The notes beneath the pieces are model-generated. The model was given only the letters and a program-made list of their open reading frames with translations. It was not told the DNA's origin and did not search any database. Positions 18,111-46,539 of a DNA stretch of 64,000 nucleotides are shown here, piece by piece. Source of the DNA: Hysterangium stoloniferum (Eukaryota > Basidiomycota > Agaricomycetes > Hysterangiales > Hysterangiaceae). The position numbers were made by a program, and so were the translations under genes. Numbering within the stretch: the first letter of the stretch is position 1; every line of letters begins with the position of its first letter. Location of the stretch: assembly GCA_015178975.1 (NCBI GenBank), contig WHVD01000051.1, forward strand, positions 372,001-436,000, read 5' to 3'.

Positions 18111-19090
18111 TTAATACTTGGTATACCCTCCCTTGGCCTTTATGACTGCCTCAACCCTCCTTGGCATGCTTTCAATTAACTTCTGACACTCAGAAGCTGG
18201 TATATCTTCCCACTCCTTCTCTATCCTCTCCCACCTCCAGAATCCCACTTGGTGCAGTGGCATACTGTCCCAGCTTTCTCTTCAAGTAATCCCATAGATG
18301 CTCAATTGGATTGAGGTCTGGGGATTGGGCAGGCCATGGTAGGACAGTCATTCCATTATTTTCAAACCATTCCTTTGCCTTTTTGCAGGTATGTTTTGGA
18401 TCATTATCCTGCTGAAAGATGATTTTAGCAGGGTCCAACTGGTAATACCTGATGCTGTTTTGGAGGTCTTCATCCAAGATGCTCCTGTAAAGTTCCCCAT
18501 CCATTCTACCCTCAATCCTGGTGGCATATCCCACACCCTCCCACATAAAGCACCCCCAAACCATGACTGATCCTCCACCAAACTTCACTGTCCCTTGAAC
18601 AAGCCTCTCATTCAGGCCTTCCCCAGTCTTTTTCCATGCCCATTTTCTCCCATCTGAGCCAAGGCGATTTATTTTAGTCTCATCAGACCACACAACCCTC
18701 CACCAGTCATCTAAAGTCCAGTGCTGGTGGGCCAAAGCAAAGTCAAGCCTCTCCTTCATATGTCTCTTGGACAAAAGTGGCTTCTTCTTCTTCACAACTG
18801 CTTTCATCCCTGCTTTCTTCAAGCTCCTCCGAACTGTCTCAGCCAAAATAGGGTTGTTGGTGATGGTCTGAAGTTTCTGGGCTATATCCACTGCAGTTTC
18901 AGCCTTTCCAGATGTGATTAGATAGACTGCATGATGGATGTTGATAGCAGAGAGCTTCTTGGGACGACCTCCAGTTGATTTGGGAAGGGTAGGAAGGTGC
19001 TTAGAGTGAAGTCTGGAGATAGTACCAATGCCAAAACCAGTGATTGATGCAATGGATGGAGTGGAATGGCCAGCTTCAAGTAGAGAGATA
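18111..19090 (-). pseudogene. Tc1-type DD34E transposase, N-terminally truncated and frameshifted
   Basis: Cut-and-paste transposase. From the 5' side: helix-turn-helix (EAGHSTPSIASITGFGIG, GGRPKKLS), linker RRSLKKAGMKAV, then the DDE core: WSDETKINRLGSDG (first Asp), FGGGSVMVWGCF, FQQDNDPKHT (second Asp), and SPDLNPIEHLWDYLK (Glu). The second Asp to Glu spacing counts to 34 residues, the Tc1 pattern. A one-base loss near 18240 shifts the frame, and a relative at 19405-19550 shows the expected tail. The start is missing: at 19091 the sequence turns into terminal-repeat sequence. All three catalytic acids remain. Confidence 0.88.
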
Positions 19091-20988: not shown

Positions 20989-20999
20989 TACGTCAGTGA

Positions 21000-22510
21000 T
21001 TATCCATCTTTGAATCTAGGATTTCCAATATCTCGAATTTGGGTTCCCCGTCAATAATCACAGGTGGAGGTGGAGGTTGTACGCATTCAGGTGTACTGCA
21101 TGCATATTCTCGGGGAGCTGAAGCATCCAAGAGAGCGTGCCTGCTTGTGCTATAATTTCAAAAGGTCCTAAGTACTTATTGGTGAGCTTTTTGGATGGCC
21201 TAGTCATTCGGAAGAACTTGGCTTTGACAAATACTCAGTCACCGATCTTGAGTTCAGGGGGCGGCAGCCGATTTTTGTCTGTAAAGTGTTGGTAATGTTC
21301 CTGGGCTGATGTGATGTTCTTTCAAAGTTCTTGGTGTAGCTTGTTGAGGTTTGTGACAAAGTCCTGAGCACAAGTTGAAGTGAGATCACGTTCCAGATGG
21401 ATAGCAATGTTTGGGTTGTAGCCTTTATTTGCAAAGAAAGGTGAAATGCCGGTAGTAGCATTTGGGGTGTTATTATATGCGAATTCGGCAAGCGGTAGAA
21501 GTGATTTCCAATTGTCTTGTTGATAGTTGCAATAGACTTGGATGTACTGTTCCAATGTTTGATTAGTGCGTTCAGTTTGGTCGTCACTTTTCCGGGTGGT
21601 AGCCGGAAATGAAATGGAGTTTCATGTCAAGTGCTTTTCCGAATGACCTAAAATTGAGAGATGAATTCGGATCTGCGATTGGAAGTGACATGCAATGGAA
21701 TGCCATGCTTGGAGAATACATGAGTGTCAAACAATTTGGCCAACTGTATGGATGTTACTGTATCATAAGTTGGAATGAAAATACTTTGCTTGGTAAGCCG
21801 ATCCAGAACAAGAGCATTGCGGTATGGCCGTTGGATGCCGGTAGGTGTTCGATGAAATCCATTGATATTGAATTCCAGGGTTTTTCCAGTATTGGGAGTT
21901 GTTTGAGTAGGCCATGTGGTTTGTGACATCTTGATTTGGAATGTGCACAGTTGGTGCATGATTTACAATAATGCTTGACAAAATCTCAGAGACCGGGCCA
22001 TGTATATTCTCTTTGGATAAGTCCGATGGTAAATTGATACTGAAATGTCCCGAGATCTGGTGGTCATGTTTATGCTGTAAAACTCGAAGTCAGAGAGTGT
22101 CGGAGTCCAGAACATATATGCAATTGTCAAGTTTAATGAAATCTTGCGGGTCGAGTGACCATTGGGAATGATCGGGGTTGGATGGGTTATCGAGGTGTGC
22201 TTTGGTGCTGGGTCTAATGGAAATGCCAATAATATATCTTGATGTAATTTTTCAGTGTCCATAAGGATAACACTGTGCATGACTGGATGTATAAGGTAAG
22301 TAGCTCGGATTAACTCGGACAGTTGTTCTGATGAAAACATAGGCTTGAAATTATGCAGATTAACTGTGGCATAGTTGCTACTCCCCTCTTTAGGATAGAC
22401 GTCCCATCGTCTAGTCATAGCATCAGGTTTTCCACCAAGGTGGCGGGGACAGAAGCGGATGACCATATTGAAGGCAGAAAGGTATTTGGAGAAGGGCCGG
22501 GTGACGACAT
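21000..22510 (-). pseudogene. Gypsy pol remnant: RNase H end, integrase and C-terminal domain
   Basis: Matches the pol of the intact element at 27702-31400 over its second half. Recognisable pieces: PDAMTRRWDVYPKE (about 22400), the integrase zinc region (about 21950-22060), integrase core ISMDFIEHLP-like sequence near 21850, SEFISQF and a site resembling the second catalytic Asp region (about 21650), and YCNYQQDNWKSLLPLAEFAY (about 21480-21540). The chromodomain lead-in survives near 21010-21060. Multiple frame changes and stops make it dead. The reverse transcriptase part is missing and replaced at about 22520 by tandem repeats. Confidence 0.8.
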
Positions 22511-22519
22511 TTTTGGAAT

Positions 22520-23640
22520 CCGAAGTTTCTGAAAGTTCGGAGAGGTCAGAAAATCTGGAAATCTGAAATTGAGCTGAAACATTGGTGCCAAAGACCAAGT
22601 ATACTAAAAAGGGTTGGAATGGCACAAAAGGCCATATATGCTAAAAAGCCGAGATAAAAACAATCATGGCAAGAAGGAAAACTCAACAAAGAGTTAAAAT
22701 TCGGAGAGTCTGAGGTTTCTGGAAAATTTGAGGATTTCAGAAAGTCCAAGAAATTCCGAAAATCCAAAGGTTCTGGAAGGTCTGAAAATTCACAAAATTT
22801 GAAGTTGGACAAAAGGGCTGAAAAGGCCGAGAGAAAGGCCAGGGATCCAAAAGGCTAGGATTGCCCGAAGGCCAAAGTTTGCCTGAAAGGCTGGATTAAA
22901 CTGATTTTTGGCAAGTAAACACTCAACAGATAATTGGGCATGGAAAGGTCCGAGGATTCCAGAAAGTCCGGAAATCTGAGGAATCCGAAGTTAAGTGCAA
23001 GTGTTGAACATGCCAAAAACAGCCATAAATGCCTAAAGGGCCAAATATGCCAAAAGGCTTGAGGTGCCCAAAAGGGCCGAGGGTTGCCCGAAGGCCAAGA
23101 GTGCCAAAAGAGGCCAGGGGTGCCCGAGAAAAGGGCTGAGGGTTTCCCGAAGGCCAAAAGTGCCTGAAAGGCTAGATTAACTGATCTCAGCAAACAATCA
23201 CTCAACAAATAGGTAGGATCCAAAGGGTCTGGAAATTCCGGAAAGTCCAGAAGTCCGAAGAATCCAAAGGTTCCAAGGGTTCCAGAAAGTTCGGAAGAAA
23301 CCATGGAATCCGAGTTTAAGTGAGAGAGTGGGAAGCCAAAAGACCAGAGATGCCGAAAAGGCCAGGCCTAGAAGGGCCATGGGTGCCCAAAGGCCAGAGA
23401 TGCCTGAAAAGCCAGATTAAACTGATCTTCACGAGCATATACTCAACAGGTAATTGAAATCCGAAGGGTCCGAAGATTCCAGAAAGTCCGGAAATCCAAG
23501 GAATCCGAAGAATCCAAAGTTGACTGAAAGAGTAGAATATGCCAAAAGGGACCAGAGGTACCAAAAGGCCAGAAAATGCCCAGAAAGGCAAAGGGTTGCC
23601 CGAAGGCCAGAGATGTCTGAAAATATTCAGAGCAGACCAA
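22520..23640. repeat. Tandem repeat array inside a broken Gypsy element
   Basis: Units of about 235-280 bp can be aligned on a recurring ACTCAACA segment (near 22680, 22919, 23201 and 23440). Each unit is built from short subrepeats such as TCCGGAAAGTCC, GAATCCAAAGG and AAAAGGGCCGAGGGTGCCC. Long open frames on the minus strand here (repeated FPDFLESSD, LWPFGTSGP and similar) are by-products of the repeat rather than a protein family. The array sits exactly where the reverse transcriptase of the flanking pol remnants is absent. Confidence 0.7.
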
Positions 23641-25517: not shown

Positions 25518-25714
25518 TCTAGGTTGAGTTTCAAATTAAAGAACTGTAGCATACATGGTAGGAACTTTATACAAAGGTATAACAGAGAGTCAGAGGTCTG
25601 ATTAAGGAAATGGAAATAGTGATGGGTCAAAAAGAAGTAGGAGAAGGAAGGGGGATCCAAATGAGACAAAATACAACATAGGAAAGTATTCTGAAAAGGT
25701 GTGAGGTGGCAAAT

Positions 25715-26297
25715 TGTTAAGTGCCGTGTCGGGAACTTATTCCGGAACTATCGGGAAGTCACCGGGAAGTCGGAAACTCGTGGATAGGGTCAGGACGTCG
25801 GCTTCAGCTTATGTGCTGCGCCTCTACGCAAACGCTCAATGTCCTTAATTTCGGAAGTGAACTAACGACGGAAGATATGGATATTCAGAGTTCTGAAGAG
25901 TTCCGAATATCGAGCGTACAGAAAGACGGGAGGAGGAATAAGAAACTAAGTCGATATCAGATCTAAAGTAAAGTACAAATTTGCGGAAACTAATATAAGT
26001 CTACTCGTTATTGTACTACAAACTGAGACCATAATAAGACGGAAATGGAAGTATTCTTAAAACGGAAATACAATAAGACATATTAGGAAGACAATATTCC
26101 GAGACGGGAATACAACAACAAACGAGTGAATACTTGTCAATGGACAAATTACCAAATGCGGAACAAACAAAGAACGCGGATGATACGGTAACTATGATGT
26201 TCCGTAGTCAGAGGTCAAAGTCGGAAGTCGGGGATCGGAAGTTGGGAGTGGGAGACCGGAAGTCGGATATTGAAACATCCGGGAACGGGTCGTAACA
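25715..26297 (-). repeat. 3' LTR of the chromovirus
   Basis: Plus strand runs from TGTTAAGTGCCG to GGGTCGTAACA. It pairs with 32649-33232 and carries the structured block at 25793-25844. Confidence 0.93.
25793..25844 (-). other. Shared LTR structured block, chromovirus 3' LTR
   Basis: Conserves the inner hairpin with CAGC/GCTG arms and a GGAC/GTCC closing stem. Flanking bases differ from LTR1 (GTCGGCTTC in place of TTGGCTTC). Confidence 0.65.
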
Positions 26298-26308: not shown

Positions 26309-26481
26309 TTAGGCCGAAATCCCATAGAGGCGATTAGGTACTGAGTGTTTGAAGCGACGGCTGACTGTTATGTGTCGTGAAATTTACGCAATTATGGAGG
26401 TGAGAGTTTCGGTTATTATTCTGAGTATAAAAACCTCCAAATATTCGAATTAACGTTTTTGTTTCTTTATCCACGACTTGT

Positions 26482-27624
26482 ATGTCGATTCGTCGGCCGT
26501 TATTCATCACTACCCCGGAAAACTCAGATACCGAAATATCCATCCTGCAAAGAATGTCGAAGGTCGCAGAACTTCAACAAAAACGCCAGAAAATGGAGGA
26601 GTTGAAGCGACGACAGGAGGAGGAGGAAAAAGCGTTGATAAAAGAGTTGAGGGATGCGGAAGAGGCGGAAAAACGGGAATTGGAGCGGGCGAAGGCGGAA
26701 AAAGAAAAAGAGTTGGCGAGGTTGCGGAAAGTGATGGAGGATCGGAGGTTGAAGGAAGAAGAAGTGAAGAAACAACAAGAAGCTGAGGCGGCGGAAAAAC
26801 GTAAGGAGGTAAGGGAAGGAAAGGTGAGTCCGATTCCATAGATTTCCGTGGTTACAACCGATAACTGTTGCGTACAGCGAAAAGCCGTGGAGGTGGAAGT
26901 AGAGGGAGAAGCTGGGCCTTCGAGTCCTAAAGTAAGTGCATCTACAAAAGGTCGGTAATTGACTAATCTTCCGCAACAGAAACAAAAGGTCAAGGCTCCG
27001 GAACGGATGGAAATTGCCCATGACACTCCATGTGTTCGATGTTCCGTACGGGATACAACTTGTTGGAAACAGAAGGTAAAATGGGGTGGAACTTGTTATC
27101 CTTGCGCAGTCCTCAAACTTCCGTGCACTCTTGCTGCGAAAAGGGTTCCGAAAAGCGAAAAGGCTCAAAAACCTACCATCGCGGAAGGTTCAGGAGCGAC
27201 CAAAACTGCGGAAACTAAGGTGCCGAGTACAGATGGTATGGGCGTTGAGCTCCTTAAGGAATTGGTCGATACAATGGTCTTCATCGGGGTTGAGATGCGG
27301 GAAATGTGGGAAACACTGGATCGCCATAATGAGATCCAGGAGAAGGGTTTCCGTTTGTTGGTCCGGAATTTCTGGAGGCAAAACGATTTCCTGGAGAAGA
27401 TGATGGTTAGTATCGGTGTAATCGCGGTATCCGAACGATTTGCCGATAAGGCGAAAAACCAGCCGAATGATCCATTGGCGGAGTGTGTGGAGCGGAGATG
27501 GGGGTCGGGAAAAGAGGAGAGTGAAGATGAGGAGGTACAGGATATGGTGGAAAGTGCGGAAATTGCTGAAGAGCCGGAGGTTGGGACGGAAGGTGGATTT
27601 GGGGTGTCAGAGACTTTAAGATAG
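26482..27624 (+). CDS. Antisense accessory gene in the chromovirus: coiled coil plus six-cysteine zinc-cluster-like protein
   Basis: Three exons, 26482-26823, 26878-26931 and 26980-27624, join in frame through GT-AG introns (GTGAGT...ACAG and GTAAGT...ACAG) into about 346 residues. Residues about 25-115 are a strongly charged K/E/R coiled coil. Residues 150-181 have Cys spacing C-x2-C-x6-C-x10-C-x2-C-x6-C (starts CVRCSVRDTTC, ends CYPCAVLKLPC), which fits the spacing rule of fungal Zn(II)2Cys6 DNA-binding domains but lacks their usual basic run between Cys 2 and 3. A helical segment follows (about 200-270) and then an acidic tail (ESEDEEVQDM). It is transcribed opposite to gag-pol and converges with pol, 77 bp apart. 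No family is recognised with certainty, and a role in DNA binding or in controlling the element is inference. Confidence 0.72.
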
Positions 27625-27701: not shown

Positions 27702-30700
27702 TTAGAGTGATGATAAAGGTCCGGGTTTGCCTGGATAAGCTGTGTGGAAGTCAGTAACAATTTCCATAGCATGTCCAAGTTCCGTGGCCAATATCCATGA
27801 AGTTTCCTCGTCGGTACCTTCATAACCTGCCCATTTGACTAAATAGAGCAATTTACAAGTACGTCGGCGATTGTCGATTTTAGAATCCAAAATTTCGGAA
27901 ACTTTGAATTCAGGTTCTCCATCAATGATGACCGGAGGGGACGGAGGTTGAATACGTTCCGGGAATGAGTTAGGAACACAAGGTTCTAGCATGGAAACGT
28001 GGAAAACGGGGTGGACTGCTCGCATACTGTCGGGAAGACGGAGAGTCCATGAAAGTGAACCGGCTTGTGCTATAATTTCGAAAGGTCCTAAGAATTTCTC
28101 GGCGAGTTTTTTAGAAGGTCGGGTAGTACGGAAGAATTGAGCTTTTACAAAAACCTGATCACCAACTTTAAAATTAGGAGGCGGGATCCTGTTTTTGTCC
28201 GTGGAACGTTGATAATGTTCCTGTGCGGAAGAAATAGCTTTCCGAAGTTCTTGATGTAATTCATCGAGGTCGGTAATAAATTCTTGAGCACGGACAGAAG
28301 CCAAATCTCGTTCGGAATGTACTGTGAGATTCGGATTATAGCCTTTATTGGCGAAGAAGGGAGATATGCCGGTGGTTGCATTCGGAGAGTTATTGTAGGC
28401 GAATTCCGCGATCAGAAGAAGGGATTTCCAGTTGTCCTGTTGATAATTACAATAGATGCGGAGATATTGTTCCAGTGTTTGATTAACGCGTTCCGTTTGT
28501 CCATCACCTTCTGGGTGATATCCCGAGGTGAAGTGTAGTTTCATGTCGAGGGCTTTTCCGAGGGCCTGGAAGAAATGGGAGACGAACTTGGAGCCTCGAT
28601 CGGAAGTTACATGAGATGGAACTCCGTGTTTGGAAAATACGTGAATAATGAAAAGTTCCGCTAATTGTAAGGACGTGATTGTATCATGAGTGGGTATGAA
28701 AATGCCTTGTTTCGAGATTCGGTCCACAACGACTAGAATGGATGTAAAGCCTTCGGAAGTCGGGAGTTGTTCGATAAAATCCATGGAAATTGAATTCCAA
28801 GGTTTCTCTGGTATCGGGAGTTGCTTGAGAAGGCCGTACGGCTTATGCCTCTGGGTTTTAGAGCGTAAGCAGGTGGTGCATGACTTACAGAACTGAGTTA
28901 CGAAATCTCGGAGGTTGGGCCAAGTGTATTCTCTACGGATTAAACCAAGAGTGTTGTTGATGCCGTAATGTCCAGAGATTGGATGATCATGTTTATACTG
29001 AAGTACGTGGAGTCGGAGATTGTTGGAATCTGGAACGTAGATACGTCCATCGAGACGGATAAAACCTTGAGAGTCTTGTGACCATCGGGGTTGGTCGGGA
29101 TTGTCAGGAACTTCTAAATGTGGCTTGAGGGCCAGATCGGAAGTGAGTGCGGAAAGGATATCTTGATGTAATTGCTCAATGTCCATAATCATGACGCTAC
29201 GCATAATTGGATAGTAAAGGGAAGTTGCTCGGATAGATGCGGAAAGTTGTTGCGTTGTAAAAACCGGTTTCAGGTTATGTGGATTAACAACAGCGTAGTT
29301 ACTTTCCCCCTCTTTAGGATAGATGTCCCATCGTCGAGTCATGGCATCTGGTTTTCCACCAAGACGTCCGGGTCGGAAACGGATAATCATGTTGAAAGCG
29401 GAAAGAAATTCAGACCAACGGGCCTGCCGGCGGGTTAAAAGTTTAGTGGTAGAAAAATATTCGAGATTTTTGTGATCGGTAACGACGTCAACGGGAGTTG
29501 CGGAACCTTCGAGATAATGGCGCCAATGTTTGAAAGCTTCAAAAATTGCCAAAAGTTCCTTATCATGAACGTCGTAATTGAGTTCGGATACTGAAAGTGT
29601 TCGAGAAAGGAATGCGACCGGATGAATTTCACCGTTGGAATCTTGAATGGAAAGGATCGCGGCAATTGCATAATCGGAAGCATCGGTTTCCACAATAATC
29701 GGAACATCAGGTTTCCAATGGGAAAGAATCGGGGCAGAAGTGAAAGCATTTTTTAAAGTCTGGAAGGCGGAGCGGCATTTGTCATCAAAAACCCATGGTT
29801 GAGTTTTACGGGTAAGACGAGTGAGTGGTACTGTAATATCCGAGTAGTTCCGAATAAAACGACGGTAAAAGTTGGCAAAACCTAAAAATGATTGAATGTC
29901 CTTGACCTTCCGTGGTTCGGGCCAGTCACGGACAACTTGAACCTTGGTTTCATCCATACGGAGACCATCAGGGCCGATGATGAAACCTAAGTATTCAATA
30001 GAATCCATGTCGAAATAACATTTTTTACCGTTGGCAAAAAGACCGTTTTTACGGAGTCTTCGGAAGACTTCACGGACCTGTTCATCGTGAAGAGCGGGAT
30101 CCTCGGAAAATACCAAAATGTCGTCCAAATAGACTATAACACATACGTCAAGCATGTCGGAAAATATATCATTAACAAAACGTTGAAAAGCGGAAGGGGC
30201 GTTGGTAAGGCCGAACGGCATAACCAACCATTCAAAGGATCCATAGCGAGTCCGAAATGCAGTTTTCCATTCATCGCCCTCGGCAATTCGGACCAAATGA
30301 TAGGCGTGTTTGAGGTCTATTTTGGTGTAGATCCGAGCTTTCCATGGGGCGTCGAGTAAATCGGTAACGAGTGGAAGTGGATACTTGTCTTTCCGTGTAA
30401 TGGAATTTAACCCTCTGAAATCGACACAGAGTCGAAGAGAGCCGTCCTTCTTTCAGACAAAAAGGACGGGTGCTCCATACGGAGACTTTGAGGGACGGAT
30501 AAAACCTATCGACAGATGTTCATCCAGGAACTCCCGAATAGACGAAAGTTCCGATTGGGATAATGGGTAAATAGGTCCTAATGGAGGGTTTGAACCGGGC
30601 TCAATATCGATTTTTAAGTCGTAGGGCCTATGTGGTGCAAGCCTGTCAGCTTTTTGCTTACTGAAAATGTCCGCGAAATCATGGTATTTTTTGGGAACTC

Positions 30701-31400
30701 CTTCCAGATCGGCTTTTAGCTCGGATAATTCTGGAGTCGCAAAACGTCCAGATGCTTCATCAACTTTTAAGCTGATCGAAAAACATTGCGAGCCATCCAG
30801 TTTACTCGCCCTAACAAATGCCGAAGCGTTGATGAGAGAGATTTTTGGGGGCTCGGAAGTTTCGATAGAAGCCGGAGATGCCGTTGATGCCGAAAAGGCG
30901 TTGGCCGGAAAAGACGCTGCAGGAGGAACGGAAGTGTCGGGAGTCCGGAAAGTAATACTGCCCAATACCCAGTCAATCAACGGATTATATCGGGTGAGCC
31001 AGTTGTATCCAAGAACTGCCGAACAGCTAGAGTCCAACTGTGTTACGAAAAATGTAACCGTCTGGGATGTTCCACAAGGGAACCGGATAGACATGTCGCA
31101 GGCTTGAGTAATTGCCGTATTGCTAGTGCCGTCAAACAAACGCAAGGAAATTGCAGGAACAGAATGGAGTTTCAGATTATGTTTCGTGGCAAAGGTGGTA
31201 TCTACAAAACAGTGTGTGGAGCCGGAATCTATTAGAGCTCGGAACACTAAATTTCCAAGAAAGTCAGAGACGAGTTTTACGAATAATGAATCGGGATTAG
31301 AGAGAGCGGACGCGTTGAGACGGACAACCTCGGAAACACGGAGAGAGTCAACACAACCCTCTTTCCGTGCAGATTCCGGAGGGTTGCTTACTCTTTTTTT
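27702..31400 (-). pseudogene. pol: Chromovirus pol polyprotein with a single in-frame TGA
   Basis: One frame runs from the frameshift site at 31400 to the stop at 27702. In order: aspartic protease LIDSGSTHCF (about 31230), reverse transcriptase with APVLFV then KKDGS (about 30470), FGLTNAPSAFQ and YLDDILVF (about 30130), RNase H with ETDASDYAIAAIL (about 29680), integrase zinc finger (HDHPISGHYG, CKSCTTC, about 28900-29000), integrase core (SMDFIEQLP, TSDRGSKF, GQTERVNQ), a GPY/F-like module (KFLGPFEI) and a C-terminal chromodomain (KLLYLVKWAGYE, about 27830). The TGA at 30453-30455 splits the reverse transcriptase between FV and KKDGS; both sides remain in the same frame. It could be a CGA-to-TGA change. 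Everything else looks intact. Confidence 0.92.
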
Positions 31401-32614
31401 GACTCCATGGCGGGTTTTTCCTTAGACGTCGTAGTCGTAGTGGAAGTTGCTGCGTGAGCCTTGGAAGAGCTGGATTTAACGGTACAGTCGGAAACCTTGT
31501 GTCCGCCTTTCCCGCAGAAAAGGCAGAGGTCGTTGTCCATACGTCGTTGTTTCTCCTTCAGGGTGAGTTTACCGTCGGTACCCAACAAATGGGAAATGTC
31601 GGGTTTGTCGGAAGTTGACTGTTTTTCCTTGTTGGATTTCTTGTCTTTCTTCCGGTCGGAATTTGATTTGCCAGTATTAGTGCCAGAGCCGGTATTATTG
31701 CCTGAGTTGTTGCCGGAAGACTTGCTAGTCGACGCCTTGTTGTTCTGAGAACATTCCGTCGGGTTGTCTCGAGAAACCTCGGCTTTTCGTTCCCAATAAC
31801 GGGCATCGGATGTTTGAGCTTTCATCCGCATGAGTTGGAGAGTTTTTGGCTTCCCATCTTTGCAGATTTCGTCTTTAAGGCGTGACGGAAGTCCCATATA
31901 GAAATGGTGCCTGAGGGCGGAATCGTCCCATCCACATCGTGCGGCGAGGGTATTGAACTTGACGAGATAATCGGAAACTCGTTGATTGTCCTTCATCTTG
32001 AGCGTCATTAGTTCGTTTTCTGCTTCACCAGATTGATCATAAGGTCCGAAATTAGTTTCCAGTTCTTCCACGAAAGCATCCCAGTCGTCGAGCCATACGG
32101 GTGTCTCGTCGGATATTCCGGATAGTCCGGGTTCGAACCAATCCTGAGCGGTATCCTTGAGATATGAGAGCGCAAAATTGACTTTTCGACTGTCAGATTT
32201 AAAAGCATTGGGTCGATCACGGAAACTGAAACGGCATTGGAGAAGGAAATTCTTCAATTTTTTCGGATCCTTGCCGGTAAATGGTTCGGGTTCTTTGACT
32301 CCGGTGCGGGATGATTCTTTGCTATCCTCAGCGGATTTCAAATAGTCAGTGAATTTCACAATGGAGTTGATAAACAACATTTCAGTCGGTTCGTCGGGAG
32401 ATTTCTTTTTCGATGTCTCCGGCTGATCTTCTGCTTCGTTGTCGGAAGTATGGGGATCATTGGAATCCTTCGTTACCTCGGTAACCTCCTCGGTAACTTC
32501 TTCGATTGAAGCTGATGTTGTCGGCTGAATTGGGGTTTCTGGTTGGGTGGTGTAAAGTTGCAACGGGGATTGAAGTTGGGATGGTCCTTCGGCAGCTTTG
32601 CGTTTGGGACCCAT
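31388..32614 (-). CDS. gag: Chromovirus Gag (capsid-nucleocapsid) protein
   Basis: 408 residues from an ATG at 32614, about 35 bases past the 5' LTR. The N-terminal third is acidic and low-complexity (EEVTEEVTEVTKD). The capsid-like middle has PEPFTGKDPKKLKNFLLQC, SYLKDTAQDWFEP and GLPSRLKDEICKDGK, typical of Ty3/Gypsy Gag. A CCHC zinc knuckle, CLFCGKGGHKVSDC, is near residue 360. The basic Ser/Thr-rich tail ends in MESKKE at the stop at 31388, overlapping the frameshift site. It packages element RNA into virus-like particles. No defect was seen. Confidence 0.92.
   Translation of the reverse strand: MGPKRKAAEGPSQLQSPLQLYTTQPETPIQPTTSASIEEVTEEVTEVTKDSNDPHTSDNEAEDQPETSKKKSPDEPTEMLFINSIVKFTDYLKSAEDSKESSRTGVKEPEPFTGKDPKKLKNFLLQCRFSFRDRPNAFKSDSRKVNFALSYLKDTAQDWFEPGLSGISDETPVWLDDWDAFVEELETNFGPYDQSGEAENELMTLKMKDNQRVSDYLVKFNTLAARCGWDDSALRHHFYMGLPSRLKDEICKDGKPKTLQLMRMKAQTSDARYWERKAEVSRDNPTECSQNNKASTSKSSGNNSGNNTGSGTNTGKSNSDRKKDKKSNKEKQSTSDKPDISHLLGTDGKLTLKEKQRRMDNDLCLFCGKGGHKVSDCTVKSSSSKAHAATSTTTTTSKEKPAMESKKE
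31394..31400 (-). promoter_or_regulatory. -1 ribosomal frameshift heptamer between gag and pol
   Basis: In sense the heptamer A AAA AAA sits in the gag frame four codons before the gag stop. Slipping back one base enters the pol frame, which is open from here to the protease. Coordinates of the two frames fit a -1 shift exactly. Confidence 0.7.
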
Positions 32615-32646: not shown

Positions 32647-32726
32647 ACTGTTAAGTGCCGTGTCGGGAACTTATTCCGGAACTATTGGGAAGTCACCGGG
32701 AAGTCGGAAACTCGTGGATAGGGTCA

Positions 32727-32778
32727 GGACGTCGGCTTCAGCTTATGTGCTGCGCCTCTACGCAAACGCTCAATGTCC
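32727..32778 (-). other. Shared LTR structured block, chromovirus 5' LTR
   Basis: Identical to the block in the 3' LTR over its full length, although the two LTRs differ elsewhere. It lies about 110-170 nt downstream of the proposed transcript start. Confidence 0.65.
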
Positions 32779-32887
32779 TTAATTTTGGAAGTGAACTAAC
32801 GACGGAAGATATGGATATTCAGAGTTCCGAAGAGTTCCGAATATCGAGCGTACAGAAAGACGGGAGGAGGAATAAGAAACTAAGTCG

Positions 32888-32898
32888 ATATCAGATCT
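32888..32898 (-). promoter_or_regulatory. Predicted self-primer segment / transcript 5' end
   Basis: Sense AGATCTGATAT. By analogy to Tf1, the first 11 nt of the transcript would fold onto the primer-binding site. The position of the transcript start is inferred only from this complementarity. Confidence 0.5.
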
Positions 32899-33237
32899 AA
32901 AGTAAAGTACAAATTCGCGGAAACTAATATAAGTCTACTCGTTATTGTACTACAAACTGAGACCATAATAAGACGGAAACGGAAGTATTCTTAAAAACGG
33001 AAATACAATAAGACATATTAGGAAGACAATATTCCGAGACGGGAATACAACAACAAACGAGTGAATACTTGTCAACGGACAAATTACCAAATGTGGAACA
33101 AACAAAGAACGCGGATGATATGGTAACTATGATGTTCCGTAGTCGGAGGTCAAAGTCGGAAGTCGGGGATCGGAAGTCGGGAGTGGGAGACCGGAAGTCG
33201 GATATTGAAACATCTGGGAACGGGTCGTAACACAAAT

Positions 33238-37300: not shown

Positions 37301-40300
37301 TCCTCGCAAGGCGTTGTCACAGAGGAAGATTTTAAAGAAGTTCTATCGACCATGAGGAGATTGCAATCCATTCACATCGCGAGTTGGCAGATGCCTACTT
37401 CACATTCTCGAGTGAGTTTATTTTGCGTTCTTTGCTGACAATGCTAAGTAGACTTCAGCAACGCAGCACCATGGCCCTTTCAATAATCACCGATCCCGTT
37501 CTGTCTGCCGGCATTGTGGACTTTACCGAAGTCCACAGTGAATCCATTAAAGAACGTAGCCAACTTATGGCTTTGTTACCAACGACCGTATCTAGCGCTG
37601 CTTTGCGATTGTTAGTGGCGGTTTGTGGCCTTCTTGGTATCGACGAGCATCGGAAACTTGCCCCTGTCTTGTGGTCGAATTACCTGGACAGCGAAGATCC
37701 CAACATAGTCGAACCTGTAAGTTGATACCCTTAGCCTATCTGTGCTACGCTGATGCATCGACCCAGGCTTGTTTCCTTTTCATGCACTGTTTGGAGAAAT
37801 CAGCACGGGAGGTGACCCCTTTTGTTGATGATGAACGGCAAAGGTGAGTTGAACTTGCTAATCCATATCCGTAGAATTTGATTTCGTTTTGTCGTAGCGC
37901 CGACAATATGGCCAAGCGGAACATCATCAGACGCTTAATGACACTTTTCTCTTGGAGATTTCAGATATCAACGCAAACATACATCTCTGATAAAGTGCGA
38001 CGAAGGCCGTTTAAGTTGGCGCGACTCCCACTCGCATTCGTGGCCATCGATGCTGGTTCATCTACCTATGTTCATGAACAAACTGAAGAGGATCGCAAGA
38101 ATCTTCCAGGTGGATCTTTACCCTTCGAATTACGTAGACGACTGGCGGAATTTGGCTGGGAACAAGATGATGAACCTACTGATACTAAAATGGAGAAAAT
38201 CCGAGCTCCCATGTCTCTCTTTTCTCCTTCGCAACTAGACCAAATCAATGGTCCACGAGACCAGGGAACGACTTCTGCCTCGAAGAGTACAGAAAAGTTG
38301 CTTCGCCGCAAGTCGAGTGGCGCATCGAGTCACCATGGTCGTGGCGGTAAACGCCGTCCGGTCTTCGTTCCCGCATTAGTCACATTATTTTGTTCCATGG
38401 CGTTGATGACGACTGATGCGGACCCCTTCGTAGCTGCTGCAGCTCGAGAGGCTCTTCTAGTGATGCTCCGCGATGATCCAGCCATGATATGTAGACCGAT
38501 CATGGAGATTTTGTCGACGGATTTACGACGTGTCGGAGAGGTTGTGACAATACTTAGAGCATTCTTACATGTTCACCACCGTCTTCCACCTTCTGCGAGC
38601 CATCATATTTTTGGTAATCTAGGCGGATTCCTAAAGCACATATCTCGTGATTCTGATGATTCGAATGTATTTGGAGCATTTGCGTCAACAGCGCCTATTT
38701 TGGCGAAGTTGATTACTCAAGTGAGCAACCTCAATATCCGAGACTTACGCCGATCCAAGTTCGAAATATATGTTTTTCCGTCGGGTTCTCTCTGGTTTCC
38801 ACCTACAGCTCCCGCGTCCCCTATGTTTCCTCGGTCGCTTGATCACGGTTCTTATCGTAGAGATGAAATTCCGGATCAACTAGTCAATATATGCATGATT
38901 CGTACTGCCCAGAATATGCTGTTCCTTGATATGCTGAAGCACAAGCCACAGGAAGTTCTCGCGATAAGGAAAAGTATGATCGGTCTCGTTCTTCCTGGAG
39001 AAAACACTGGAAAAAACTTGGACGCAAACAGTTTTCTGCCCAGGCGAAACGACCGGAAAGGACGAAGGACCAGTTATCAGCAAGTTTCATTGGCGTTGAG
39101 CAGAAGTCATCTACTCCTTTTAGGACAAGTATTCCGTTCTATGCCAAGGAATTTTAGTGGAAAGGCAGAGCTTACAAGTCTCTTTGACGGTCTGAATAGA
39201 ATATTGATAGCGCATGGCGATGATGTAGGGATTGTTGCGCATGCCTTGATTGGTATGTGTATCCTGTTGGACGGGTATTATACCAGCCCTTACTTCTTGA
39301 TCGAACAGCTTGCATGATCGGTATAACTCGGTTTAAACGGTTTTTGGCATCTAATCGCGGTTTCGCTTTCTTCATGCCTAGTCTGCTGAAGGTGTATGCT
39401 GAGGCGGAAGGTCGCACGAGTATTTGTCAAGCAATTCAATATGCGTCCAGCCGCTTCTACGCCATCCACGAAGAAGGTTACGTCTTTCAAAGTTTAGATC
39501 TTGCCTCCAAGATTCTTGTGCGAATCAAGAAGTCGGAAGATAAAGATTGGTTCGCCCAGAAAATCTGGCTTCTCTTCTCTGCTTTAAAAAGTCCCATTCA
39601 TTCTTCAACCCCCGATGCAGCCGGCATTCGCGGCTGCAATAGAGCAGAGGAGTGTGAGGCTCTTATTGCCACCACCGTCATGGATGATATGTCCTTGTCG
39701 GCAGTACAGGAGTCTCCGCAGGGAGAGCAACTGAAGAAGATATTGGCCATCGGAGAATACGAGAGCAAGGTACTCCAATTGGACGATTTCGTGAAACTGT
39801 TCCTTACAGTGATCGCGCACGATACAACCATCATTCGTGCACAGAATTTTCTAAGTCTGTTCAGACGCATGGTGCCAAACTTTTATCGTGAGTTGAAGTC
39901 GGATGTCTTGCGAGAGGGCATTGGTGCGATCGGTCCTGCCTTGTTCCCTAAGACATCTCGCCAGAAGGGGCCAGAATCTGCGCCAGGGCGACCAGTGCAG
40001 TTGAATGGTCCTGAACGGCCTAGCATGGAGACGCAGAGGCAAACCGAACATTTCGAAGATGAGTCTTCAGCCTGTGACCCTCTAATCATGCGGCGCGAGT
40101 ATCTGAGTATGATTGTCTCCTTTGTCCAAATGGGTGGAGATCTTCGTCAAAGCACAATACGTCGCGCTCTGGAAACAGTTAAAGGCTTATTAAAGGAGTC
40201 CACTCGTCCAGAACCGGAAGTCGAGGGGACATTTCTCGATGAATTTACCAAAGCCGGTTTATATCCTTTGAGTGCTACTCCGAAGCATGCCTTATCCCTT

Positions 40301-41899
40301 TTGCAGGAAATTGTCCCTGTCATTCGGGCCTTTGCGCTGACAATAGACTGGAGCGGCGTTCTTGACACCATCACTAACTTCATGAGGCGTACAGAAGTGT
40401 CTCGGAATGACACTTTCGTACGCTTTGTTGTGGAGGAAGTTGCTAGTCCTCTCTTGCAGACGTGCCAAGATGCCGCATCGGAGAATATGCTCATGTCACT
40501 CCCCATGCGAAGATCTCTTTTATCCCTTATAAGTCATACTGCGACTTTTGGAAATGCCGACGTCGCTGGGATTATTGAGAAACAAACCCCGTCCCCCGCT
40601 TTTTTATCTGGAATCGTTCTGCCGCTTTGTATGAAGATCAAAACCTCAGCGGAAATTGCTATAGAGAACCAGATGCAAAGTAAAACACAAGCCGCCAGGC
40701 ATGGTTTTGTTTTCCTTCGTATTTTGGGTTATGTTATAGATGCTTGTAGGTTGAAAACTGATCCAGAAAGTGGCCGAGCCTCCCCATCTCCTGGACTAAC
40801 CCGTAGGGAGTCGGAGCGGAGTAAAGCGTCGACAACCACAAATCGTACACTTCTGGCCACAATGTCGATAGCCATACAGATCATAAAAGTCATTGTTTAC
40901 AGAGCTGCAGACGACATCTCCATCGGGTTGGTAGGGATATGGGCTCGGCTGGCACAGTTTTTGAAACACTTGCTGGCTGATGGCAATGCACAGTTTGCTC
41001 TGGCTTCCATTGTATCACCTTCGCCATCTCCTTGGCAGTCTCCGACACTTGGCCCAGCTCTTGCTCATTGGTCGGAACGACAATCTTTATCATCTGATCA
41101 TGCTAGACCGTCCTCTTCACAGTCTTGCAGTCCCCGAGTTGTTGACTATCTGACATGGTCTTTGTTGGAATTTCTTTGCTGTGCGCCGTCGGCTTTGAAT
41201 CTGCAGATGCGTCTCTGGATGCAGGAGAGGATGCATAACTTGGACGTCGAACTCAAAGCACGTGAAGTTCGGACCTCTTCTCTAGTACGAGGATCTCGCC
41301 GTCTTTCGACTTCTGTATTTGCCAGGCCTCGAGGATCTTCTGCTTCGCCTGATGCCCTCCGTGCTTCAAATACGTTTTCCAGGATACCGAGTGATTTGAA
41401 TCTATCTGCCTCTTTACCTTCGGACTATAGTATCCATCCTCGCTTTCCACCGTCCCCAGCGTCTTTACAGCCTTCGCGACCTGGCCCTCGAATCATTCAC
41501 CTTGGGCCCACCAAGGACCACCCTGCATTCAATGTGCCTTTAGAACGGTCCTCGTCCATGGATAGCCACTTGAAGAGCCTTGCACGCAAGACCTACATTG
41601 CGTTACCGATCTTGGCCCGTATGACTGAAGACCGTATCCGGGTAGTACAGGTATGCATGGGTTATGACCGACTTCTACCTTTAGAGGGTCAGGGTAATGA
41701 TCCTGCCGATATCAACCTCAAAGCCTGGACGAAGGCATCAACGTTAGTCATGCTGGCGGAGGAAACCAAACTTCTTATGGATGAATTCCCCGAGAATTTC
41801 CATGACATTGTTGGTGGCGGCTTCGTCGATGTTCCTGCGAATGTTGGCGCTGCAGATACACCTTTTGATAGTCCCATGAAGAAGCCCGTTTTGTTTTAA
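34343..41899 (+). CDS. Very large helical-repeat-like protein, candidate UNC80 family
   Basis: The first exon starts at ATG 34343 with a Ser/Pro-rich disordered N-terminus (about 210 residues), then a folded region (FESEVLSVLLLPFLNNAGYE). At least ten short introns follow: for example 35383-35417, about 35854-35907, about 36282-36330, and one near 39254-39309 joining into ACMIGITRFKRF. The last exon is very long (to 41899). The protein is about 2,200-2,300 residues, mostly amphipathic helices as in HEAT/ARM scaffolds (for example DPFVAAAAREALLVMLRDDP), with low-complexity Ser/Arg linkers near 41270-41560. Size, single-copy context and C-terminal region suggest the fungal UNC80-like family; the Furry/Tao3 morphogenesis family is the main alternative. 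I recognise no catalytic motif. The gene seems intact, but the function is not certain. Confidence 0.85.
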
Positions 41900-42736
41900 A
41901 TTACAGTTGTTATTTATTCAGTTATCATTGTTATTTTTCCACTTCAAAACAACGCTGTATTATCTCATTGTGCCTCGTCCACAATCTTTCAAAAAATGAA
42001 AAATAGAAGAAACGTCTAAATATGATTCAATAGGACGCCTCCGGCCATTTGGTTTCGCCCCATCCCGGGACGTTGGGAGACGACCGAGTCAATGGATTAT
42101 GTTAATCTTTAGGATAATGCAGACATAATAAAACCTGCAAGTACGTCGCTCACTGAACCATTATAAGACCGAAACTTTGCCAAGTGATATTGGGAAGTGG
42201 TGGATGCGATGTTTCCTAATGTGACTTCAAATCGTATTATTGATTTAGAGGGTAATAGAACGCTTTGAGTTAATCATTTTCGATACTACTCTCTCCTAGG
42301 GCTGATGGCTATGTAAGACCTAACGACCTAAAACATCTGAAGCCAACTGAAGGTTTGCTAACAGTATCCTCGTGCGCATTCTGACATTTATAATTTTGAA
42401 CAATATTCATATTTTTAATATGGGACAATAAACTAGGGGGTTTCTGGCGTGAAATGGCCCAATGTATCTCTAACAATGTAGAGACAGTCGTAGTTCCCAA
42501 ATCATGTCTGTATCCCTCCCTCTCTTGTGTGAATTGCGTTCTGGTTCGGGTCTCAGGAAAAAGCCCATCAAATTTTCACATTGTTTTACGTTGTAAGTCT
42601 TTGCAGACAGCATAGTCCCACTAGGTCACAGCAAGTAGAATCGTTTAAACCAAGGAAATACATGCCATCTCAGATATAGACATAACGCGAAAGAACTAGT
42701 CCGCTACATCGGACAAGGTCAGAACGATGTTTATAC
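41900..42736. other. Intergenic region between convergent genes
   Basis: 3' ends of the large plus-strand gene and the minus-strand transglycosidase gene face each other. No further gene, repeat or RNA was seen. Confidence 0.5.
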
Positions 42737-44394
42737 TTAGAAGAGAAGCGATGTTCCGCCCATTAGCAATGTCGCCCAGAATGGCCAGGCACTCACGCCT
42801 GTCATCATGCTTGATGCGCCATTAATGATGGTAGATTGATTGGTTACGAGCACGGCGGGAACCGGGACGGCGCCAGTCGTTACGTTAGAACCATATACAT
42901 ACGAAACCGCGTCCGCTGCAACGGAACCCGCTAGGTCGGAGCACTTGATGGAGATGGATTGGACAAGAGCGTAATAATGGCCAGCACTTGTATAATCGGG
43001 ATCTTGCCAGTTGATCATGCTTAAAAGAGGATGTATTATAAGTGTAAACCAAAATTGGCTGTGATGAAGTTGGATTTACCCTCCTGCCCAGCCGACTGTA
43101 CCAGGTGCAGACGTGTTGATACCAGCAGGCCAAAGACTGAATTGAACTCATGAGTCTTAACCATAGTCATCCCGTAAACAAAGCAGACCTCAATTGCACA
43201 CGAGCCGGTGTGCTGGGATACTTGCCCCCAAAGTCAGTCTTCTTTATGGTTCGTTCAGCATTGCCATCGATCAAGAAGGTCAAAGCATCGGGTTGCCAAT
43301 CGATCTGTGAGAATGAACTAGTTAGCACATCGTCCTTTTCAGCGGTCACAGGAGTGCTAGAATCACAGTGTAATCGTGGTAGTTCGCAAACGTATCGGTC
43401 AAACCGTTGACCGTGAATCCATGGGTATCTTGTAAATCGATTGAGTTCCTGGATAACAGACCTATGGATAAATGCTCACAATCTGGAATGGCCATAACGT
43501 AGTAATTTGTCTGCGCTTCGGTAGTGTTACCTCCTGTTGCGAACGCAAATCAGTATGCTGGACTGAATCCTTGTCTGTGTCCGCACCAGGGAACTCCCAA
43601 TCGATTTCATCCTTAATATCAGACATGGTGATAAAGGCGGTGACGACTCCTCGCCAGCGACCTGTCTTCACTAAAGGATTTGCATTAGCTGCTGTTTAGA
43701 CGAACAATGCTGACGTGGGTATTTACTGCGTGTGGTAACGGTTCCGTAATGAAGATAATGGGTGGATGAGATCCTTGTTCCGCCATTAGTTTGGGTAAGA
43801 ATTAAAGCCAACTCTCCACCATTCGCGTTAGTATTGAGGACGGAGCCTTTATCGACAACCCAGTCTGCGATCGCAGTCCAGTTTAGTGACAAGGCCTGAC
43901 TACATGTTGTAAATTTTAAAAAAATTACCCCATTTCGTAGCGTTACCATCATATAGTGACCCGTTGGTGAGAATACGAGAGTTATCCGTGAATTTATGCT
44001 AGAACGGGATATAGTTTGTGGAGTGATGAGTTCCTGAAACAACACTGACCACGGCACTCTGGCACAATGGGGATGGCTCGCAAGACGCTGGGGTATGGGA
44101 CCATAGGGCATTACAGCCACCGAGACAAAATTCCTGATGTCATTTAAATTAATCTCTTCTGAAAGCTCACATAACACTAACGCACCCCAGTGCCGCAGAA
44201 ACCGAATTCTGAACAACAAGGTGCGCTTGTAGGGCACAATGCAGTGCTATTGCTATAGATTTGAATCTTAATAAAGACCCGAACAGGCTGCAAATAGTAC
44301 AGACAAACCATGTTGCGCCTCCCTGTGCGAGAACAAGGGGTAGTTGACTTAACAGCGGAATTGCCGCAAGTATAAAGAAGCTTGTAGGAAGCAT
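42737..44394 (-). CDS. CRH-type cell-wall transglycosidase: CBM18 + GH16 + GPI signal
   Basis: Secreted enzyme that links chitin to beta-glucan in the fungal wall. Signal peptide FFILAAIPLLSQLPLVLA at the ATG at 44394. After an intron, a chitin-binding CBM18 module reads CPTSAPCCSEFGFCGTG and continues FCLGGCNALWSHTPASCEP. The GH16 fold follows, with VKTGRWRGVVTAFITMSD and the catalytic DEIDWEFPG (E-x-D-x-x-E pattern) near 43590-43630. Later exons hold IDWQPDALTFLIDGNAERT and MINWQDPDYTSAGHYYAL. The C-terminus is Ser/Thr-rich and ends in a hydrophobic tail (WPFWATLLMGGTSLLF) preceded by small residues, a likely GPI attachment signal. About eight introns. No defect seen. Confidence 0.88.
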
Positions 44395-45370
44395 TATTAG
44401 GGGTATTTGGGTAGTTAACGAATGTGGGGGTCAAAAACAGCCTGTGTTCACTGACGGTCGTTGGTTAGGACAGAGCCTGAGATAGTGGGTCTCAACGTAG
44501 TACATAAGTAATCAGATCGGTTACATCCGGTCCACGTGCTTCAGTACTTGCAGCGTCGCACTCGCGAGTCTCTCCACCTATAAAAATGACATCTCTCTTT
44601 TGTAATATTCATGAGTAATTGCCTACTCGGAAAGAGAATCCGTCGTAGTGAAGACGTCATTGGCACCTCTTGTTGCTCTGTCACGTCATGTCACCTGTTC
44701 GAAAATAGGGTGTGACACAAGGTTACACGGGTAATTTGGTGTCACATTTTTAGACTTTAGCTTAAAGTAGCGTATGTATGCTATCTGTTTATCTCCTACG
44801 AGGCACAGAAGTCGAATGGGAATTATGTTCACCTTTGCTGGTGGTTTTTGTGGGCTTCAGGAAGTGATTTCAACACGGGATACGTATCCACGATTCATTT
44901 GAGAATTTACTGATTATAGATCTGTAGAATATGATCAAACCATCCTTTCAGTCCAGTCCAGTAGGTACGATATGGATCATGCCTCCTCCAGGTCGTTGAA
45001 CTAATTATTGAGTACTATCTGGGCTAATGTTGCGAGAACCGCCACATGAAAAGGCGTGTCGAGTAATATGAGGCATTGTTTTCATTTTCCTAGTGTCCTC
45101 TGTGAGCCATATTATTAATAAATACAGCAGGGGTTTAAGTTAAATCTCCAATCTCATAGCAAAAAAATGGAAAACGAGAATATACTAATGCCCTTTTAAT
45201 CTCTATTGACTCATAGAACTCGGAGGAAAACGAATAATATAAGAAAAACAAGGCTACTTATATACTCGGAATAAACTATCAGTAGGAGCTACAAAAAGAA
45301 CAAAAGGGCAGTAGGTTATCAGTGTATAGAACATTGTACATGCTCACAGCATTCTAACAAGTAGCACGAC
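44395..45370. other. Divergent intergenic region, likely promoters
   Basis: About 1 kb between the divergently transcribed transglycosidase and FAR-17a/AIG1-like genes. GTGTGACACAAGGTTACACGG-like short repeats of GTGACA/TGTCAC occur near 44685-44750 (TGTCACGTCATGTCACC, GGTGTCACA). They could be regulator sites, but this is not established. No gene seen. Confidence 0.4.
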
Positions 45371-46539
45371 ATGTTCCGAGCTCTCAAGACATTTCACAAT
45401 CATGGCTTAATGGCAGCTAAAGCATTATTTTACGTTTGGCTTTCCCACAGGTGGCCAATCTCCTGGAACATGACCACACCCGCTTCTAGTCACATTACTC
45501 CTTCCAAATCCAACTCAGAATTTAAAAATTTGACCGCAGGTGAATGAGGCTGTACAACTGTTACATGTGCAAATATCATCATTCTAACTTCGAATGAAAG
45601 GTATAATTATGACAAGGACTTCCGGCTCCCTAATTCTTCATACCTTGTCTTGTGGTATTATGTTCTGGGCATTCAAGCAGCTTGACACTGTCCCAATGGA
45701 TGAAAGGATAAAGGTGGGGAGAGGTGGTCATTGGCAGTTCCTTACTATTCAATGGTGAATCGGCGTCCAATTTTGTTTTTGATGTGATTTCTTGCTAATA
45801 GTATTTCCAACTGCTCAGCTTAGCGATAGCAGGCCTCACCATGGTCCTCGGTGCTTTGGCAGACCTATTTCCATCCGTGTCAGGTAATCACATATCTCTT
45901 TTAATTAAAGAGACTTCCCTTGGTGCTGAATGTATTGTTATGATCTGATCAGGGATCCGCAAACATCAGCGCAAACTACTCATGGTGTCACTTCCAGTTC
46001 GTATTTACGTGTCCTTGGTGCAAACTATGCTTTGGGCTGATGGCCACTTCGCAGCTGGCTGTTATTGTCTCCATGATTTATTGGAGTTTGATATTATTTG
46101 CCCCAAGTCTTATCCTACCCCCCGCACCAGATTTTGACTCTGTTCTTTCATCATCTTCTGCGGCATCCCCTCTAGCACGTGTCCCGCTTCCCCTCGATAT
46201 AGCATTGCATGCATCTCCTTTGATTACACTCCTCTTAGAATTTATATTATACCAAGAACCCTATTCATCATACGATGTGTCATACACTGCCCCTGTCCTC
46301 ATCATCGTCGCTGGTATCTGGTATGGCAGTTTTGTGGAATATTGCGCTTCCTACAATAAATCTTGTACGTTCTCGCTATGTTTTCACTGTCCATCATTGA
46401 GCCATCCATTGACCCGAGACTTTTAGTCCCTTATCCTTTCTTGACAAATAACATTCTTGGAGTTAGGATAATTATTTATTCATGCGCCACCCTCCTAGCA
46501 CTTTTAACCTCTCGGGCAGTCAATGCTCTCCATCCATAG
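45371..46539 (+). CDS. FAR-17a/AIG1-like integral membrane protein
   Basis: Multi-pass membrane protein of the AIG1/ADTRP family, whose animal members hydrolyse fatty-acid esters of hydroxy fatty acids; the fungal role is not known to me. ATG at 45371. Exons in order: a first soluble/TM part (FRALKTFHNHGLMAAKALFY), GRGGHWQFLTIQ (the conserved G-x-W-x-F-L-T motif, about 45715-45755), LAIAGLTMVLGALADLFPS (about 45824-45880), a long exon with several membrane helices (IVSMIYWSLILFAPSLI; HASPLITLLLEFILY, with a conserved His), and the last exon LTNNILGVRIIIYSCATLL ending at a TAG at 46537-46539. The Thr and His positions that act as the nucleophile pair in animal homologues are plausible but not proven here. 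Confidence 0.85.

Follow-up and report, generated by a model that had tools for sequence, protein, structure and literature searches.

Antisense extra genes of LTR retrotransposons are already known from plants and from the Boty element of Botrytis, and the gene described here is another variant of them rather than a new kind. The functions of these genes are not known, and nuclear location or DNA binding has been reported or proposed for their products (PMC7264820, PMC11963269, PMC8365987). Maize Grande (gene23), rice RIRE2, and Silene Retand each carry an antisense open reading frame between pol and the 3' LTR (PMC7264820, PMC11963269), which is the arrangement found here. Antisense frames of plant Ty3/Gypsy elements, for which nuclear location or DNA binding is likewise reported or proposed, are present in most copies (PMC7264820, PMC11963269), as is the present gene, and the Grande frame has its own promoter (PMC7264820, PMC11963269), where we find a candidate TATA box at a fixed distance. 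The plant systems differ in their hosts, in the non-chromovirus lineage of Retand, and in their TRP28 (Retand) and SMC domains – neither of which was seen in a Pfam search of the antisense protein.

Among fungi, the LTR retrotransposon Boty/BcGypsy1 of Botrytis cinerea carries the antisense gene brtn (Zhao et al. 2011; PMC8365987, PMC7264820). The host of Boty is an ascomycete, and brtn is likened to the present gene by description only. The word 'antisense' is absent from the main text of a survey of fungal LTR elements (PMC3248453), and the titles and abstracts shown for the open-licence literature yielded no zinc-cluster antisense gene in a basidiomycete retrotransposon. New here are a probable basidiomycete chromovirus lineage, conserved intron borders, a zinc-cluster-like motif, and a candidate self-target.

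Two more distant systems offer points of comparison. HTLV makes its antisense proteins from spliced antisense transcripts, and they act on its own LTR (PMC3185765); HTLV-1 HBZ combines a spliced antisense transcript from the 3' side with regulation of its own LTR (PMC3185765), as we propose here by analogy. HBZ belongs to the bZIP proteins, and its transcript begins within the 3' LTR, whereas the protein here has a six-cysteine motif and its candidate TATA box lies outside the LTR. The two are not homologous, and Pfam gave no bZIP match in the antisense protein. Arabidopsis VANDAL elements are DNA transposons. Their VANC is a fast-diverging, element-encoded protein, with short motifs arrayed in tandem repeats in non-coding element DNA (PMC5735166). 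VANC is a different protein, and DNA binding was shown there (PMC5735166), whereas here it is proposed; the likeness is hypothetical.

We drew a final comparison with a family of fungal proteins. Fungal Zn(II)2Cys6 factors (PF00172) have a cluster, a linker, and a long helix and recognize CGG-rich sites. The antisense protein resembles them in its cysteine spacing, in the order of cluster, linker, and long helix, and in its CGG-rich candidate sites. It differs from them in scoring below the Pfam cut-off and, in one of its two families (family A), in lacking a basic loop; the fungal regulatory middle domain was not seen in it either (Pfam).

The host element and the antisense gene

The window analyzed here is a stretch of 64,000 nucleotides from the genome of Hysterangium stoloniferum, which was searched as 111 Mb in 554 contigs. 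It contains a Ty3/Gypsy chromovirus on the minus strand, bounded by a 3' LTR (25715–26297) and a 5' LTR (32649–33232) that agree at 572 of 584 aligned positions (98% identity) and are flanked by a CAAAT duplication (25710–25714 and 33233–33237). Consistent with this classification, Pfam recognized gag, protease, RT, RNase H, integrase, and a C-terminal chromodomain between the LTRs – the set of domains that characterizes a chromovirus – with the chromodomain (PF00385) scoring 25.1 bits, exactly at its cut-off. All on the minus strand, gag (Retrotrans_gag, with a weakly matched zinc knuckle) occupies 31388–32614, protease and the start of pol form a separate open stretch at 30453–31247, and the part of pol with RT, RNase H, integrase, and the C-terminal chromodomain lies at 27702–30296. 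The pol of this copy is broken between 30296 and 30453. In a set of 5.8 billion proteins pol has 5938 matches at E ≤ 1e-100; among the 120 listed, the fungus-named relatives belong to Trametes, Lentinula, Leucocoprinus, and Coprinellus, and one other bears the name of a Chlamydiales MAG.

The surroundings of the element hold other repeats and genes. To its left, 20990–22493 (minus strand) contains degenerate kin of the same element lineage, with pol pieces 48–74% identical, near which no match to the antisense gene was found at E ≤ 1e-3. Three imperfect 77-nt repeats, 70–82% alike and rich in TCCGGAAA/TCCGAAG, lie at 22914–23510 within a strongly AT-skewed stretch. Over 273 residues, an open frame at 48864–49769 (plus strand) shares about 50% identity with the element's gag; it probably represents a second Gypsy family. 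Another open frame, at 18190–18891 (minus strand), resembles by eye a Tc1/mariner-like DDE transposase. Pieces of a host gene at 37878–41899 (plus strand) match Pfam UNC80_C (PF20262; E 1.2e-6 and 3.6e-10). Rfam and tRNA searches of the window gave no match.

The first-pass annotation had proposed a spliced gene opposite gag-pol, between pol and the 3' LTR. This placement – the aORF-3R position – is seen from the layout of the element, and the proposed model of three exons and 346 codons on the plus strand was confirmed in its coordinates. Exon 1 (26482–26823, 114 codons) encodes an N-terminal segment and an E/R/K-rich helix; exon 2 (26878–26931, 18 codons) encodes an acidic linker ending in SSPK; and exon 3 (26980–27624, 214 codons plus stop) encodes a six-cysteine motif, a linker, a long helix, and an acidic tail. 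The two introns (intron 1, 26824–26877, 54 nt, GTGAGT..ACAG; intron 2, 26932–26979, 48 nt, GTAAGT..ACAG) are canonical, lie in phase 0, and join the frame exactly. Alternative in-frame GT/AG pairings are present in the region, and the chosen model has the best borders. Across the exon 2/3 junction (26926–26994, with intron 2 inside the span) the protein reads PKKQKVK, which we take, together with PKKQKQ in a second family (locus L042), to resemble a nuclear localization signal.

Upstream of the gene we identified a candidate antisense promoter. A TATAAAAA box (26426–26433, plus strand) lies 56 bp 5' of the ATG within the 14-nt block CTGAGTATAAAAAC (26421–26434), and this block is present in all 40 family A copies that were scored. 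The offset of TATAAA from the ATG is −56 in 36 of these copies, −57 in three, and −55 in one. At 20 further loci, TATAA is found at −56 to −58 in 17; L049, L057, and L059 show none within 90 bp. The leader between the LTR and the gene also contains the block GGCCGAAATCCCA (26312–26324, plus strand), which is identical in family B (L042).

Conservation and selection in two families

A DNA search of the genome returned 361 candidates, of which we scored 40 copies – the window copy included – that cover the whole query at 83–100% identity. The frame is kept in these copies: the ATG and the GT..AG borders of both introns stand at the same places in all 40, the CDS length is divisible by three in 37, and the gene is open from start to stop in 26, the other 14 having stops or frameshifts. 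In one open copy, L036, a compensated frameshift puts part of exon 1 into a different frame. Retention of both introns in every copy would suit a gene whose transcripts come solely from the strand opposite the genomic RNA, as we infer here. A translated search with exon 3 extended the survey to more diverged copies; in the best 150 of 928 candidates, at 67–100% identity, a hand count gave 115 without a stop and 35 with one.

We also approached the gene from its neighbor, scoring 150 of 3517 candidates for the C-terminal end of pol (125 at ≥87% identity to the window and 25 at 83–84%). A listed antisense gene lies beside at least 96 of the 125, separated from pol by a median of 96.5 bp (range 84–785 in the 96 linked copies). 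None of the 25 lower-identity ends sits beside a listed family A gene, and the two that were opened (L041 and L042) have a diverged antisense gene built in the same way. The L042 gene has a first intron of 50 nt and a second of 47 nt. Its exon 1, of 100 codons, closes with REGK and its exon 2 with SSPK, and its exon 3 starts with KQK and has the spacing C-x2-C-x6-C-x10-C-x2-C-x6-C. An exon-3 search for this second family (family B; 150 scored of 486 candidates) placed its gene beside at least 21 of the 25 ends, at 103–159 bp, with the pairing computed on the first 41 rows of the list plus two more and the remainder matched by eye. The gene is therefore found in most copies of both sets.

Thirty-three pol ends lack a listed gene, comprising 29 of family A and the remaining four of the 25. 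We opened six of these (L043 and L044 from family A and the four family B ends, L062–L065), and in all six the antisense gene is broken by deletion or truncation. The lesions differ from one another and lie beside pol ends 83–99% identical to the window. The protein may be dispensable in cis, it may be supplied in trans, or the losses may have followed insertion.

Families A and B are 85% identical in RT (312 aa) and 83–84% identical at the pol C-terminus, and 52% identical in gag. Their antisense proteins share 43% identity over the 99 residues around the motif and 22–27% over exon 3, and their LTRs have little in common beyond one stretch of about 68 columns. That family B keeps the same two introns, cysteine spacing, and TATA distance at so low an exon-3 identity marks the antisense gene as old, and a promoter of its own is probable. 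The pair of families amounts to a natural experiment, in which pol has stayed about 84% identical while gag, LTR, and antisense protein have diverged. The lineage also offers 150 scored places per family, an unambiguous gene model, a motif whose proposed binding of zinc and CGG DNA is testable, and a candidate array in the same element.

Further evidence for splicing comes from the 20 additional loci (L041–L060), where a script snapped the junctions to a nearby GT or AG – a bias towards finding them. In 18 of the 20 the lengths of exons 1 and 2 divide by three, with 16 of the 20 informative; L044 (which has a deletion) and L058 (where junction placing failed) depart from this. The start of exon 1 is unrecognizable in L049 and L057, L052 has ATA in place of ATG, and several of the older copies bear stops in their exons. 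Intron 1 ranges from 50 to 56 nt (e.g., 50, 52, 53, 55, and 56), with 61 in L060 and 85 in the deleted L044. Because these lengths vary off multiples of three, reading through the intron would often break the frame, which is the best sequence evidence for splicing. We regard the gene as almost certainly real, and its splicing as modeled appears very probable.

Purifying selection was examined in the 40 family A copies, which form three clades; dN/dS was estimated in five comparisons (within clade 2 was left out), with stop codons excluded. Values in the real frame are not near 1: 0.38 within clade 1, 0.34 between clades 1 and 2, 0.24 between 1 and 3, 0.18 between 2 and 3, and 0.28 within clade 3 – the lowest of the six frames in all five comparisons. 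Control values are 0.70–1.91 for four frames, namely both remaining forward frames and antisense frames 0 and 2. Antisense frame 1 shares wobble positions; its 0.24–0.53 exceeds the real frame in every comparison. When the 26 open copies alone are considered, dN/dS is 0.78 for the 8 nearest pairs and falls to 0.27 for the 39 most distant. The pol C-terminus at the same loci gives 0.37–0.73, on an alignment uncleaned of frameshifts that makes it a poor yardstick. By these comparisons of sequence, the antisense gene is under purifying selection.

Constraint varies along the protein. Between clades, dN/dS is 0.07–0.22 in the zinc piece, 0.15–0.26 in the long helix, and 0.42–0.71 in the linker between them, reaching 0.69–0.71 in the linker where clade 1 is compared with the others. 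The zinc piece reaches 1.33 inside the youngest clade, where dS is just 0.025. We observed separately that clades 1 (L001–L023) and 2 (L024–L034) agree at the ends of the gene and differ in the middle, with a dN of 0.26 in the linker and 0.04 in the N-terminal helix and tail. The pattern resembles that of a gene shuffled by recombination among its copies.

These data bear on two readings that dispense with a working protein. Exon 1 is of low complexity (59% E/R/K), as might be expected of a chance open frame opposite a low-complexity stretch; the conservation of the frame, splice borders, cysteines, and TATA spacing, together with the low dN/dS, refutes this reading, and we give it virtually no credence. 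In the second, the antisense RNA would be the working product, pairing with the genomic RNA and so limiting the element, by dsRNA formation, RNAi, or transcription interference. Antisense transcripts that may be regulatory are discussed for other retrotransposons (PMC7264820), and the TATA block in 40 of 40 copies suits such a transcript. A dN/dS of 0.18–0.38, cysteines kept at 22–27% identity, and exons 1 and 2 kept in threes beside freely varying introns call instead for a protein, making this reading quite improbable, though the RNA and protein roles may both hold.

The six-cysteine protein and its candidate target

Zn(II)2Cys6 clusters follow the spacing rule C-x2-C-x6-C-x5-12-C-x2-C-x6-8-C. 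The spacing C-x2-C-x6-C-x10-C-x2-C-x6-C in exon 3 (27031–27126) is as first annotated, falls within this rule, and is aligned in both families. It occurs once in the six frames of the window and in none of 20 mononucleotide shuffles. Among 22 exon-3 sequences from families A and B, 14 columns are invariant, five of which are cysteines. The sixth cysteine is nearly invariant, being altered in L045 – a copy with exon-1 stops – and three further invariant columns are G36, K46, and L47 of the motif.

Profile searches upheld the annotated likeness to zinc clusters in part. Zn_clus (PF00172) was the commonest Pfam match of 15 motif pieces (hmmscan; found in 12 at E ≤ 10, best E 0.011, with the most members of any family listed), but its scores in the tables shown – 9.4, 13.7, and 14.4 bits – fall below the curated cut-off of 21. 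The motif fits the spacing rule and could, on paper, work like a zinc cluster, while formal assignment to PF00172 did not follow. The whole exon 3 of the window gave no Pfam match at E ≤ 1, the motif profile nothing in the PDB at E ≤ 10, and NCBIfam nothing relevant; a PDB search by sequence returned eight weak matches (E 0.38–3.9), with no zinc cluster protein among them. Gal4-type clusters usually carry a basic stretch between cysteines 2 and 3. Family B has a basic KRGR there, and family A is without a basic stretch at this place. AlphaFold left the cysteine region unfolded (pLDDT about 40–52 by blocks) and modeled with confidence only the long helix after the motif, whose core exceeds a pLDDT of 90.

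Gal4-type factors are ordered cluster, linker, coiled coil. The first-pass annotation had instead placed a coiled coil before the cysteines, and this did not survive: the helix there, 59% E/R/K in the window, shows no heptad preference, with its heptad value reached by 1780 (family A) and 1838 (family B) of 2000 shuffles. At 58–59% E/R/K in both families, it is more like a single charged helix. A candidate dimerization coiled coil lies after the motif, in a predicted 76-residue helix (exon-3 residues 85–160; 27232–27459) whose power, across the periods tested, peaks at 3.5 residues. Its heptad count is attained by 138 of 2000 shuffles in family A, a weak signal, and by 40 of 2000 in family B, where the period is clearer. 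The acidic tail was borne out, with 18 D/E and 6 K/R in the last 60 residues.

We looked to the LTR for a potential target. Near one edge of the 3' LTR is a CGG-rich repeat with a 21-bp period (26218–26267, plus strand, 2.4 copies), which recurs in the 5' LTR (33153–33202, plus strand). The window 3' LTR has three CGG pairs 7 bp apart, a number matched at this spacing by none of 300 shuffles, and some shuffle reaches four pairs at some other spacing. The array is larger in L036 (21-bp unit repeated 8.0 times, 23 CGG pairs 7 bp apart), there are 10 such pairs in L037 and seven in L038, and at least two are present in 30 of the 40 copies. VANC targets have the look of motif arrays grown by tandem repetition (PMC5735166). 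The case for the LTR CGG arrays as targets of the antisense protein is suggestive only. As a target common to both families the array was rejected: the single family B LTR examined has no 7-bp array (132 of 300 shuffles reach its value).

A second candidate signal, CGGAA, occurs 15 times in the 583-bp LTR, compared with 2.1 times in shuffles (none of 200 reach 15). Across the 40 copies, the matched stretch of LTR has 11–28 occurrences (with unusual spans in L008 and L011). Counted in 1-kb bins, eight of the nine bins with at least seven occurrences fall at 25 to 33 kb. We rejected CGGAA as an LTR-only signal – it is element-wide, coding parts included, with the LTR the densest of the stretches counted – and its enrichment along the whole element may be compositional.

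We consider it narrowly probable, from the features assembled above, that the antisense protein is a DNA-binding regulator of its own element, acting in the nucleus. Transcription of the gene, on the strand opposite gag-pol, would begin from a TATA promoter of its own that sits between it and the 3' LTR, and the transcript would be spliced twice in the nucleus. Its product – with an NLS-like motif, a Zn(II)2Cys6-like binuclear cluster that would bind zinc, a dimerization helix, and an acidic tail – would re-enter the nucleus and, as a dimer, bind the DNA of its own element, for which the LTR CGG arrays are candidate sites. Transcription of gag-pol would be regulated in consequence, by an activator, an anti-silencing factor, or a feedback repressor, as either sign is possible. 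The roles first suggested for the protein – regulator, silencer, or targeting factor – are ones that we too can only infer.

A more specific form of this proposal, in which the protein is a Zn(II)2Cys6-type transcription factor made from its own promoter and reading the CGG arrays of its own LTR, is tentative and somewhat doubtful. If it were true, protein and LTR array would diverge together while pol stayed constant, making the system a retrotransposon counterpart of HBZ and VANC and the protein possibly the first zinc-cluster factor of fungal type to belong to a mobile element.

The protein could alternatively act in integration or trafficking – in import of the pre-integration complex, in targeting together with the chromodomain integrase, or as a nucleic-acid chaperone. 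Import of the pre-integration complex has been raised for antisense extra ORFs in a review (PMC7264820), and an NLS-like motif, a cysteine motif, and a long charged helix suit any nuclear nucleic-acid protein. Such a protein does not require an antisense unit set apart from the rest, with introns and a TATA box of its own, however, and would leave the LTR CGG repeats unexplained; we consider this role unlikely.

Relatives outside the element

Intron-bearing zinc-cluster genes are typical of fungal hosts, and PF00172 matches occur at 52 places in the genome. These observations would suit a host gene captured in antisense orientation, with a host-type function useless to the element. Consistent with the gene instead belonging to the element, it is common to two families (150 scored places each), it is under selection, and no relative was found among 7547 + 3215 word-sharing candidates when the spliced protein and the exon-3 alignment were searched against the set of 5.8 billion proteins. 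The 5938 pol matches indicate that this set does contain related elements, and because the search requires shared 5-residue words a fast-evolving protein can escape it. Within the genome, none of the 52 PF00172 places listed lies within 2 kb of the 150 family A exon-3 places, and none lies within 3 kb of the family B places on the shared contigs entered; each search scored the best 150 genome matches, so a distant host relative could be missed. We judge host capture to be highly unlikely.

Searches of viral contigs with pol or the exon-3 alignment gave no match. Genome contigs yielded one pol, 42% identical, on a bacterial MAG contig (L061), where the extra long open frame is gag-like and, with open frames inspected by eye, no counterpart of the antisense gene was recognized. 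Multi-cluster zinc proteins would be unusual, and we observed clusters of Zn_clus matches on other contigs of the Hysterangium genome, at C115:74483–75050, C56:27459–28077 and 39173–45410, C309:4792–5007, and C209:14977–15583.
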